34,686 nucleotides of DNA from Yersinia artesiana. GTDB lineage: Bacteria; Pseudomonadota; Gammaproteobacteria; Enterobacterales; Enterobacteriaceae. Each line of letters opens with the position of its first letter. The stretch's first letter is position 1. The notes under the pieces were generated by a model. It was given only the letters and a program-made list of their open reading frames with translations. It was not told where the DNA came from and did not search any database. Location of the stretch: contig NZ_CACVAD010000049.1 of the NCBI RefSeq assembly GCF_902726545.1, forward strand, positions 1 through 34,686. Reading direction: 5' to 3'. Made by a program: the position numbers and the translations under genes. Shown piece after piece: positions 3,691-21,941 of the stretch.

Positions 3691-3767
3691 TGGTACGCCC
3701 TACAGGGCTCGAACCTGTGACCTACGGCTTAGAAGGCCGTTGCTCTATCCAACTGAGCTAAGGGCGC
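3691..3767 (-). tRNA. argU: tRNA-Arg (anticodon TCT)
   Basis: A 77-nt cloverleaf reads on the minus strand from GCGCCCT (3767) to the encoded CCA at 3693-3691. The acceptor stem GCGCCCT/AGGGCGT, D arm with AGTTGGATAGAGC, anticodon stem ACGGC/GCCGT with loop CTTCTAA (anticodon TCT, reading AGA), and T arm ACAGG-TTCGAAC-CTGT are all present. In E. coli the corresponding argU next to folD is the DLP12 insertion site. Here the integrase lies directly 3' of the tRNA, so the tRNA 3' end is the probable attachment site. No second copy of the tRNA 3' end is seen between 1 and 3690, so the far attachment site lies outside the window or has decayed. Confidence 0.97.
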
Positions 3768-9853: not shown

Positions 9854-10078
9854 AAGTCACGGTACTCGCCGTGACTTGAGGTTAATGACAAAGTGCCCGT
9901 AACGGTGAAAACAGGCAGATCGTAAAGACGCCGTAAACCCTTCCCTGGGGGCTCGAGCCGCGCCATCCGTGGCGCGGACGCTTTACTCTTCTCCCTGTCC
10001 TCACCTTGCAAGATCGAGTCCTCAGGGTTTGTCAGCGGTCTGAAGTCACGGTACTGGCCGTAACTTGAAACTACTGAC
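9854..10078. repeat. Intergenic repeat region with paired direct repeats and palindromic core
   Basis: The 357-bp gap between the convergent purK and ybbP holds no credible gene. A unit of about 39 bp starting AAGTCACGGTACT occurs at 9854 and again at 10043, in the same orientation. The first copy folds into a perfect 9-bp hairpin (AAGTCACGG/CCGTGACTT, loop TACTCG), and the second has one mismatch. Between them lies a perfect 8-bp palindromic stem CCGCGCCA-TCCG-TGGCGCGG (9958-9977), flanked by GTAAAG and CTTTAC. I recall similar sequences in other Yersinia intergenic gaps, so this is probably a dispersed repeat. The first hairpin may also terminate purEK. Confidence 0.6.
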
Positions 10079-17404: not shown

Positions 17405-17824
17405 TTAGCCAACTTTTTGTTTCTCACTCCCGTGACAACACCCCGCCAGGTTATTGATAATCGGACAATCTGCACCATCATCCCCTGGGCACTCGTCTGC
17501 CAAAGCCAATAAACGTAATCGCATCTGATTGAGATCATTAATATGTTTCTCAATTTCCGCTACCTTTTGCAACGTCGCAGCTTTTACATCCGCACTGTGA
17601 CGAGCGGGGTCATGAAACAATGCCAGCAGCTCGCGGCATTCATCTAATGTAAAACCGACCTGCCGCGCCTGACGCAACAGTGTTAACTCTTCGATATGTT
17701 TGGCGCTGTAGCTTCGATAACCATTATCCGTGCGGATAGGCGGTGTCACCAGTTTCTTTTCTTCGTAAAAACGAATGGCCTTACTGGTTAAACCGGTTTT
17801 TTTTGCGACATCGCTAATATTCAT
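17405..17824 (-). CDS. cueR: MerR-family Cu(I)-responsive activator CueR
   Basis: This 139-residue protein has an N-terminal winged-helix DNA-binding domain ([29 protein letters not shown]), a dimerisation coiled coil and a metal loop. Cys112 and Cys120, the two Cu(I) ligands of E. coli CueR, are at identical positions ([11 protein letters not shown]), as is Ser77. The C-terminal CCHG motif is also kept. CueR senses Cu(I), Ag(I) or Au(I) and activates copA by distorting its 19-bp-spacer promoter, which lies directly upstream at 17834-17864. Divergent cueR/copA adjacency is common in Yersinia; in E. coli the genes lie apart. Confidence 0.97.
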
Positions 17825-17833
17825 TCGTCCCCC

Positions 17834-17864
17834 TTGACCTTCCCCTTGCTGGAAGGTTTAACCT
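17834..17864 (+). promoter_or_regulatory. CueR-controlled copA promoter
   Basis: TTGACC (17834-17839) and TAACCT (17859-17864) are separated by 19 bp, the over-long spacer typical of MerR-type promoters. The CueR dyad ACCTTCC-CCTTGCT-GGAAGGT (17837-17857) fills the spacer and is nearly identical to the E. coli copA site as I recall it. Transcription would run rightward, with a leader of about 150 nt before copA. Confidence 0.9.
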
Positions 17865-18020: not shown

Positions 18021-20777
18021 ATGTTGCAAACCACAGTGCTGGCCTTACACGGCCTCTCCTGTATGAATTGTGCCAAACGCGTAAAAACGGCATTAGAAAG
18101 CCGTGAAGATGTTCATCATGCAGAAGTGAATGTTCACTATGCCAAGGTGACGGGCGAAGCCGAAACCACAACACTGATTGATACGGTGAAACAAGCGGGT
18201 TATCAGGCAGAAGAAGCTCAAACTCCTGATATTGAATTACAGCTCTCAGGTTTGAGTTGTGGGCACTGTACCGAATCTACGCGCAAAGCGCTGGAAGCCG
18301 TTCCTGGTGTGATTGCAGCAGATGTCTCCCTCGATAGTGCCAAAGTGTATGGCAAAGTTGAGGCACAAACGTTAATTGATGCTGTGGAGCAAGCAGGCTA
18401 TCACGCCACACTGCCGGGGGCGCAATCCCCAAAAACTGAGCCGCTGACTCACTCAGCCCCATCTTTGCCGGAATATCAGGCAGCGGCCTCTTCAACCATT
18501 CCGGCAGCAACAACTGACATTAAAAATACGCAACCCAGCCAGCCGGTAGCAAAACCTGCTGATAATGACAGTGTTCAGCTATTACTGACCGGGATGAGCT
18601 GTGCCAGTTGTGTATCTAAAGTACAAAATGCACTGCAAAGTGTTGATGGTGTTGAGGTCGCACGAGTCAATCTGGCGGAGCGCAGCGCATTAGTCACCGG
18701 TCACCCTAGCAATGAGGCACTGATCGCGGCGGTCAAAAATGCCGGCTATGGTGCTGAAATCATTGAAGATGAAGCAGAGCGGCGCGAGCGACAACAGCAA
18801 ATGTCGCAAGCCAGTATGAAGCGTTTTCAGTGGCAAGCGGCACTGGGGCTGTTATTGGGTATCCCATTGATGGGATGGGGGTTATTTGGCGGTAGTATGA
18901 CGCTAACCCCTGAGACTCAAACGCCCTGGCTGATAGTTGGGATAATCACCCTGTTGGTGATGATATTTGCCGGTGGGCATTTTTATCGTAATGCCTGGGT
19001 CAGCCTAAAAAATGGCAGTGCCACCATGGATACCCTGGTAGCGCTAGGTACCGGTGCGGCGTGGATCTACTCCATCACGGTAAATATCTGGCCGGATGTC
19101 TTCCCGATGGAAGCCCGCCATCTTTATTATGAAGCCAGCGCCATGATTATCGGTCTGATTAACCTTGGTCATGCGATGGAACAACGCGCCAGACAGCGCT
19201 CTTCCAATGCGCTGGAGCGCTTGTTGGATTTGGCCCCGCCGACTGCGCGGTTGCTGACCGATGAAGGTGAGAAACTCATCCCATTGGCCGATGTGCAACT
19301 GGGCATGACCTTGCGTTTGACCACCGGTGATCGCGTGCCAGTGGATGGTGAGATTGTCCAAGGCGAAGTGTGGATGGATGAAGCCATGTTGACTGGCGAA
19401 CCTATCCCACAACAAAAGTCCGCCGGTGATGTTGTCCATGCCGGGACACAAGTGCAGGATGGCACGGTGCTGTTTCGCGCCAATGCTATCGGCAGCCAAA
19501 CAACATTAGCGCGCATCATTAAGCTAGTGCGTCAGGCTCAAAGCAGCAAGCCAGAGATTGGTAAGCTGGCCGATAGGATCTCTGCGGTATTTGTGCCAAC
19601 GGTGGTCGCCATTGCCGTTATTGCTGGGTTGATTTGGTATTTCTTCGGCCCGCAACCGCAATTGGTCTATACCCTGGTGGTCGCCACCACGGTGCTGATC
19701 ATCGCCTGCCCTTGTGCGCTTGGGCTGGCAACACCGATGTCAATCATTTCGGGCGTGGGTCGGGCGGCTGAATTTGGGGTATTAGTGCGTGATGCCGATG
19801 CGTTGCAGCAGGCCAGTAATCTCGACACCTTGGTGTTCGACAAAACCGGCACTCTGACCGAAGGGCATCCGCAAGTGGTCGCCATTCATACCTTTAATGG
19901 GGTCAGTGAGCAGCAAGCGCTGGAATGGGCAGCCGCATTGGAAACCGGCTCGAATCACCCGCTGGCACGCGCTATTTTACAGCGCGCCGAGGGGCTGACA
20001 CTGGCAACAGTCAACCAATTCCGTACATTACGTGGTTTAGGTGTTAGTGGTGAGGTTGATGGCGTGGCGCTGTTGCTGGGGAATAATCGCCTGCTGGAAG
20101 AGCAACAGATTGATACCAGTGAGTTGCAATCATTAATACAGCAACAAGCTGAAAGTGGTACAACTCCGGTTATTCTGACGGCACGAGGTAAGCCTGCGGC
20201 ACTGCTATCAATACGCGATCCTCTGCGCAGTGACAGTATCAGCGCGCTGCAACGCTTGCATCAGCTCGGATACAATCTGGTGATGTTAACCGGTGATAAC
20301 CCTATTACCGCCAATGCCATAGCCAAAGAAGCAGGTATTGATCAGGTGATCGCCGGTGTCCTGCCGGATGGTAAAGCTGAAGCTATCAAGCAACTGCAAG
20401 CTGCCGGGCATAAAGTGGCCATGATTGGTGATGGTATTAATGATGCGCCAGCACTGGCGCAGGCCGACGTCGGGATTGCCATGGGGGGCGGCAGTGATAT
20501 TGCGATTGAAACTGCGGCTATTACCTTGATGCGCCATAGCCTGCACGGGGTTGTGGATGCGGTCGAGCTTTCCAAGGCAACACTGCGCAATATGAAGCAA
20601 AACCTGCTGGGCGCTTTTTTCTACAATGCGCTGGGGATCCCCATTGCGGCGGGTATTCTATTCCCGTTCACTGGCACACTGCTCAGCCCGGTGGTTGCTG
20701 GTGCAGCTATGGCACTCTCCTCCATTACCGTAGTCAGTAACGCTAATCGCTTATTGCGTTTTAAACCTAAACAATAA
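18021..20777 (+). CDS. copA: P1B-type Cu(+)-exporting ATPase CopA with three N-terminal metal-binding domains
   Basis: CopA exports Cu(I) and Ag(I) from cytosol to periplasm. ATG at 18021 is chosen because AAGGAG lies 6 nt upstream. The protein has 918 residues, against 834 in E. coli; the difference is largely an extra heavy-metal-associated domain. The three CxxC motifs are at Cys14/17 (GLSCMNC), Cys80/83 (GLSCGHC) and Cys194/197 (GMSCASC). Domains 2 and 3 are separated by a Pro/Ala/Ser-rich linker (133-182). Core motifs are CPC at 563-565 (IACPCALG), DKTGT with phosphorylated Asp607, the SNHPLARA His-Pro of P1B pumps, and GDGIND with Asp804. Control is by CueR at 17834-17864. A frameshift signal at 18428-18505 should give a short two-domain copper-chaperone product. 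Two hairpins follow the gene. Confidence 0.98.
18428..18505 (+). promoter_or_regulatory. Programmed -1 frameshift signal producing a CopA(Z)-like chaperone
   Basis: The heptamer C-CCA-AAA (18428-18434) sits in the X-XXY-YYZ phase of copA. After a -1 slip at Lys138 the next codons are AAC (Asn) and TGA (18437-18439), so the product would stop at 139 residues and contain metal-binding domains 1 and 2. Downstream, CCGCTG (18441-18446) pairs with CAGCGG (18481-18486), extendable by GAG/CTC around a bulged C. GCCGGAAT (18467-18474), in the loop, is a perfect 8-bp complement of ATTCCGGC (18498-18505). This gives an H-type pseudoknot 3-6 nt after the slip site. E. coli copA is known to use this mechanism. 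Confidence 0.85.
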
Positions 20778-21668: not shown

Positions 21669-21682
21669 AAAATACAAAAAAA

Positions 21683-21704
21683 TGGCCGATATCGCTATCG
21701 GCCA
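21683..21704 (+). terminator. Hairpin after ybaP
   Basis: TGGCCGATA-TCGC-TATCGGCCA is a perfect 9-bp stem 14 bp after the ybaP stop. A-rich sequence precedes it but no U-tract follows. Confidence 0.6.
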
Positions 21705-21941
21705 GTCAAAGAGGAATTTTCATTATTTTAGTTATTTAGCCCCCATATTCCTTGCGGAAAATATGAGCAGCCCGTATAGGGTAGCAACCTGACGATTAGA
21801 TTAGCAACTGACATTCATCATATATTGTATCGCATCGGATCATTGTGCTGATTTTATTAGGTTAATTTTTAGTCCTGCGCCAAAGATTGGGTGTAGGATA
21901 TTCCAACTGAATAAATTTTCATTTTAAATTGGACGTTTATT

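Follow-up and report, generated by a model that had tools for sequence, protein, structure and literature searches.

Programmed -1 frameshifting in the copA gene of Escherichia coli, which gives the product CopA(Z), was reportedly described by Meydan et al. (2017, Mol Cell) and Drees et al. (2017, Mol Microbiol). A 2016 review describes this frameshifting as efficient and gives the product as 70 aa (PMC5009743), and in another paper the E. coli case is called well supported and a ribosome drop is noted (PMC9548414). The position of the event can be checked in the RefSeq annotation of strain K-12, where the "soluble Cu(+) chaperone" CDS (YP_009518752.1) is given in two pieces and ends at the TAA predicted by the heptamer rule: the CDS end, base 2569 of the locus, is the last base of this TAA, and the heptamer CCCAAAG lies at 2580–2574. 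According to a review (PMC7558416), the distal N-terminal metal site of E. coli CopA is chaperone-like and the proximal site affects turnover, roles that fit a signal separating the two.

The copA gene analysed here lies in a 34,686-nucleotide stretch of Yersinia artesiana DNA (contig NZ_CACVAD010000049.1; the whole stretch is called the window below) and resembles that of E. coli in having a CCCAAAR heptamer in phase, a single -1 codon before the stop, the same linker before the last metal-binding domain (MBD) and the same arm positions of a downstream pseudoknot. It differs in that the heptamer is CCCAAAA and the stop TGA, instead of CCCAAAG and TAA, and in that the predicted product has two domains and 139 aa whereas E. 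coli releases one domain of 70 aa. The mechanism is known from E. coli, and the two-domain product is a variant that may be new: a literature search over titles and abstract openings found no report of a conserved, a two-domain, a Yersinia or Sodalis, or a frame-swapped copA frameshift, while the founding study may itself show conservation.

Other systems offer partial parallels. Free-standing CopZ and the predicted product both belong to the HMA family with a CxxC motif; however, CopZ has its own gene and one domain of ~70 aa (PMC7558416), whereas no separate gene was found here and the product would have two domains. In Haemophilus influenzae, tandem copZ genes (PMC10187127) are another route to more chaperone domains beside copA, using gene copies where the window has domains in one recoded product. 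The structures PDB 1p6t and 2rml (chains of 151 and 147 aa) match the tandem MBDs of copA by sequence, and they too represent the N-terminal region of a copper ATPase, determined separately from its pump. We take both to be the tandem MBDs of Bacillus subtilis CopA, which presumably are part of the pump and are not released by recoding.

The copA gene (18021–20777, + strand, ATG at 18021) encodes a Cu(I)-exporting P-type ATPase of 918 aa, which scores 1688.5 bits against a cut-off of 1316 with the equivalog model NF007952 (NCBIfam, CopA) and has Pfam matches to HMA in three stretches and to the E1-E2 ATPase and hydrolase domains. Its three N-terminal MBDs are MBD 1 with CMNC (18039–18206, HMA 42.3 bits), MBD 2 with CGHC (18237–18404, 39.8 bits), the final domain within the predicted chaperone, and MBD 3 with CASC (18588–18749, 56.3 bits), the pump's own last domain, which lies 3′ of the signal; the signal itself is in the linker between MBD 2 and MBD 3. 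Divergent to copA stands cueR (17405–17824, - strand), the copper-responsive regulator (TIGR02044, 192.7 bits, cut-off 147.4), and upstream of copA a dyad CCTTCC-N7-GGAAGG (17838–17856) is the only match in the window with such spacing, assigned by what we take to be the CueR consensus. An HMA search of the whole genome (E ≤ 0.001) found four domains, of which copA has three and a 795-aa frame the fourth, and no separate copZ-like gene. The genome's relatives place it within Yersinia. Among the named genomes, a comparison in which records very close to the window may be absent, the first 290 residues of CopA are best matched by Y. proxima (97%); the CopA of Y. similis, a species presumably of the pseudotuberculosis group, has 72% identity in the best segment of this region, which makes an origin of the window in this group improbable.

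An Rfam scan of the whole window gave zero families at the frameshift site and five matches elsewhere. These are isrK and C4 antisense RNA side by side at 1739–1928, which we take to be a phage-type arrangement, a tRNA near them at 3694–3767, the Yersinia sRNA Ysr224 at 9878–9984 (+) and sroB at 21676–21757 (-).

The slippery heptamer CCCAAAA occupies 18428–18434 (+). The copA codons at this site are TCC (18426), CCA (18429) and AAA (18432), followed by ACT GAG CCG CTG, so that the heptamer is read as C CCA AAA, in the X XXY YYZ phase, as the first-pass annotation had claimed. Its second claim, a TGA after one codon in the -1 frame, was likewise borne out: AAC (18434–18436) is followed by TGA (18437–18439). 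Four in-phase XXXYYYZ heptamers exist in copA, but CCCAAAR is found only at 18428–18434, and a -1 stop after one codon is unique to this site, the other three having 39, 2 and 39 codons.

Downstream, two pairs of complementary arms stand in the order S1-S2-S1′-S2′, which is that of an H-type pseudoknot, and a spacer of 6 nt separates the heptamer from the first conserved pair. Stem 1 is formed by 18440–18446 and 18481–18487 (conserved cores 18441–18446 and 18481–18486), and stem 2 by 18466–18473 and 18499–18506 (conserved cores 18467–18473 and 18499–18505), all on the + strand and defined by pairing and conservation. The H-type order and the 8 bp of stem 2 thus agree with the first description of the element, while two details needed amendment: stem 1, given there as 6 bp, has 7 bp in the window, with 6 bp as the conserved core, and the span ends at 18506, not at 18505.

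From the positions of the heptamer and the stop, the CopA(Z)-type product (18021–18436, +) is predicted to consist of 138 zero-frame codons plus Asn, 139 residues in all with Pro-Lys-Asn at the end; the proposed length and Lys-Asn terminus therefore follow directly from the copA sequence. The signal does stand after the second domain, as had been proposed, and both domains 5′ of it are HMA domains with CxxC, which leads to the prediction of a tandem two-domain product. The predicted 138-aa product scores 109.2 bits with the NCBIfam model CopZ_AFE_1862 (cut-off 85), residues 1–68 aligning to model positions 1–68. As CopZ is defined by a single small domain of ~70 aa and this product would have two domains and 139 aa, it is classed as chaperone-like and not as a CopZ member.

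For comparison, copA 5′ regions were collected from the genus, where all 25 genomes gave a match, from the GTDB family, where 124 of 198 genomes did so and 110 of these were used, from named genomes (29 loci) and from E. coli K-12. The non-redundant set comprised 147 loci, or 137 once nine Vibrio loci and one Plesiomonas locus were removed. Thirteen loci identical to included Yersinia loci were dropped as redundant, together with L086, which is identical to L048 and is counted through this twin among the 110 gathered family genomes; L055 was dropped for having no match to the last MBD, and by choice L001, L027–L031 (duplicate or unrelated parts), L169 (a second E. coli) and L170–L181. Outside the 137 stand G186 and thirteen family genomes with weak or partial matches (G040, G048, G134, G192, G193, G127, G046, G074, G135, G140, G177, G185 and G190); the first six of these were inspected separately, and G134 (L180) has CCCAAAG, one codon and TAA; G186 (L255) has the standard heptamer and stop.

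In 128 of the 137 non-redundant enterobacterial loci, CCCAAAR is in phase and a single -1 codon precedes the TGA or TAA; this count is not a phylogenetically weighted rate because the family sample was drawn evenly and the genus and named loci were then added. Within Yersinia, the heptamer, its phase and the stop are kept in 24 of 25 genomes, the window's included. The nine departures are five loci without CCCAAAR (L025, L076, L084, L093 and L165), L078, where the heptamer is present but 18 codons precede the stop, and three frame-swapped loci. Among the five, L084 has AAAAAAA in this place, yet still one codon and a TGA, L165 has lost all upstream domains, and L025 (the named locus L039, Y. 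pekkanenii), the only Yersinia exception, has GCCAAAA with the usual linker peptide and two domains. Nine departures of 137, one of them within Yersinia, indicate that the signal is not indispensable, even inside the genus. L093 (G151) has three upstream domains, the second and third near-identical in sequence, before its linker without CCCAAAR.

None of the nine Vibrio loci has CCCAAAR in the linker, and the combination of CCCAAAR and a one-codon stop is absent from the f21 loci examined. L225 and L238 (both f9), which lie outside the window's family, have CCCAAAG, one codon and a stop. AAAAAAG in the corresponding place, one codon and TGA are seen in L050, from a Plesiomonas MAG, and in L224 (f11), which has a similar linker.

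The putative frameshift signal of copA is strongly preserved by evolution, as its silent sites and its pairing attest. In 133 enterobacterial genes, chosen without regard to the heptamer, the ratio of observed to expected silent difference is 0.38 over 26 codons inside 18426–18505 versus 0.84 over 173 codons outside (Mann–Whitney p = 1.3e-10, a guide only since codons and genes are not independent). The ratio is lowest at the heptamer and the arms (0.33–0.40) and higher in the loops (0.54 and 0.73). The Pro codon of the heptamer has an identity of 1.00 against 0.27 expected, and the codon at 18435, whose silent site makes the -1 stop, one of 0.96 against 0.29, while the Lys codon, whose third base is free as either A or G fits the heptamer, shows 0.50 against 0.59.

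The conservation of heptamer phase and stems among close copA genes, on which the first-pass annotation had made its reading depend, was found in the alignment, with compensatory changes in stem 1. All six pairs of the stem 1 core are formed in 128 of 128 genes, with compensatory double changes at three positions (GC to AU in L136, CG to UA in L117 and UA to CG in L166); the outer pair 18440:18487 is paired in 94 of the 128. For the inner seven pairs of stem 2, 116 to 128 of the 128 genes are paired at each, 3 to 12 genes being unpaired at six of the seven, and the outermost pair 18466:18506 is formed in 17 of 128. When the 128 genes are reduced to 32 rows, each unlike the others at the paired positions, a choice that favours variable rows, 91.3% of 416 cells are paired and 8 of 13 pairs have changed on both sides, five of them in stem 2. 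None of 500 shuffles reached this paired fraction or this both-side count, and the covariation score exceeded all 500, while 23 of the 500 had at least as many further pair types; slid-control alignments gave 15.8–55.6% paired. Conservation is looser in stem 2 than in stem 1 (83.9% versus 100% of cells paired in the 32 rows), and in a separate shuffle test of stem 2 alone its 186 of 224 paired cells were equalled by the top of 1000 shuffles, also 186.

The two-domain version is not special to the window's genome. One HMA domain precedes the heptamer in 73 of the 128 genes, two in 50 and three in 5, the HMM and motif counts agreeing for all 128, and the median lengths of the predicted products are 70, 140 and 206 aa, respectively (counted from the first Met, a rule of thumb). 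The two-domain genes include 24 of the 25 Yersinia loci, Serratia grimesii and Xenorhabdus loci. As the signal stands just before the last MBD whatever lies upstream, the predicted chaperone has one, two or three domains; in other words, in the 128 genes the signal would free everything except the pump's own last domain. In a domain tree (~63 residues, no support values), the lone E. coli domain seems to cluster with the first, not the second, upstream domain, in agreement with the NCBIfam match of residues 1–68; this is at most a tentative pointer to which domain was lost. Short CopZ-like frames that stand alone and resemble the second domain of CopA were seen in L174, L175, L176 and L177 (G193, G040, G048 and G192); they stop about where the linker would begin, and an ATPase frame is absent from the 4.2 kb examined.

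There are more complicated cases. In the three frame-swapped loci, L135 (= L196, G138), L139 (= L198, G130) and L148 (= L197, G028), the first domain and the heptamer share the zero frame, which encodes the predicted chaperone and ends at a TGA three codons on, and the pump and the last MBD are in the -1 frame. The swapped pattern was searched for in 392 family genomes and turned up 11 times, in 10 of them; four of these matches are in copA (G028, G127, G130 and G138); the seven others are apparently unrelated by their letters, and a reversed-pattern control gave 6 matches. In G028, G130 and G138 the pump frame runs uninterrupted to its end, in G127 it is broken into pieces, and one TGA within the G138 and G130 matches sits, in the pump frame, upstream of the heptamer. 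Between G028 and G130, dN and dS are 0.075 and 0.584 over 746 codons of the pump, and 0.143 and 0.645 over 73 codons of the chaperone. G138 is alone in its genus, its siblings G241, G312 and G371 having the standard form, with pump dN/dS of 0.040–0.057 to them; it may be either a recent swap or an assembly error, both of which are compatible with these ratios.

With a probability of about 0.9, we consider 18428–18506 to be a signal for programmed -1 ribosomal frameshifting like that of E. coli copA, one that would release a two-domain Cu(I) chaperone. The slippage is carried over from the homologous E. coli case, whereas the heptamer, its phase, the stop, the arms and their covariation are read from the sequence itself. 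Ribosomes translating copA would reach C CCA AAA and pause there as the downstream H-type pseudoknot resists unwinding; in a share of them, the Pro and Lys tRNAs would slip in tandem from CCA-AAA to CCC-AAA, and these ribosomes would add Asn and stop at the TGA. A soluble protein of 139 residues with two tandem HMA copper-binding domains would thus be released, which may carry Cu(I) to the pump as a chaperone, while non-slipping ribosomes would read on into the third MBD and the P-type ATPase.

Could such an element arise merely as a by-product of codon choice for a conserved linker peptide? The peptide PK-x-x-PL in the linker is itself well conserved, but the silent-site conservation and the compensatory changes speak against this explanation, as does a redraw of synonymous codons from copA's own usage. 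Of 20000 such draws, 1.4% contained CCCAAAR with a one-codon -1 stop; of 5000, 0.32% had an H-type knot with stems of 6+7 bp or longer, and 0 combined the two. This null, which counts Watson–Crick pairs only in one spacing range, tests coincidence and not function; taken with the conserved silent sites, it leads us to reject chance, whose probability is close to nil. Transcriptional slippage, which needs long runs, was also rejected, the A run here being only five long. It is conceivable, if quite improbable, that the RNA element is selected and most of the short protein nevertheless arises from a truncated transcript or by proteolytic cleavage of CopA in its linker, slippage being minor here. 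The title of Drees et al. (2017) does name "differential transcript formation" alongside translational frameshifting in E. coli. Yet the in-phase CCA, the silent T for the -1 stop and the constant distance of one codon are all conserved although neither route needs them, and the frame-swapped genes require a frame change or a new start for their pump.

How these swapped relatives make their pump is a question of its own. For the lineage of G028 and G130, a -1 shift that makes the pump is the simplest reading. Internal initiation or re-initiation, or gene decay, would be the alternative for the swapped relatives only, and is unlikely, even though the pump is in pieces in G127, which is among the four swapped-cassette genomes, the linkers contain start triplets (non-ATG in L197 and L198, one ATG in L196), and G138 (L196), being unlike its three siblings, could reflect an assembly error. 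Against it, the same swapped spacing recurs under three further genus labels (G028, G127 and G130), the pump is under purifying selection between G028 and G130, CTG is the sole start triplet common in kind and place to L197 and L198, and the swapped loci retain the heptamer, its phase and stem 1. Somewhat less unlikely, though still doubtful, is that the signal works but the two-domain form is no two-copper chaperone, the extra domain being a spacer or cleaved off and the function that of the one-domain E. coli form. Genes with one and two domains coexist (73 and 50 of 128), so that the number of domains is evidently not critical, but each of the 50 two-domain genes has CxxC in its first and in its second upstream domain, the motif being a requirement of the search, whose count matched that of the HMM.

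For the family as a whole, we lean towards regarding the frameshift signal, and not the domain, as the stable unit of enterobacterial copA: upstream domains would be gained and lost, with one-, two- or three-domain chaperones released, and in at least one lineage the frames would have been exchanged, with ordinary translation giving the chaperone and the -1 slip making the pump. The E. coli recoding case would then become a family-wide one with predicted one-, two- and three-domain products, and copper stoichiometry and chaperone design would become comparable within one mechanism. The frame-swapped genes would be a natural test, in which the pump, not the chaperone, should depend on the heptamer. 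If a -1 shift does make the pump in the G028–G130 lineage, the functioning of the signal in nature would have independent support, and a swapped pump that needs the slip would mean that the signal is efficient enough to supply a copper pump maintained by selection.
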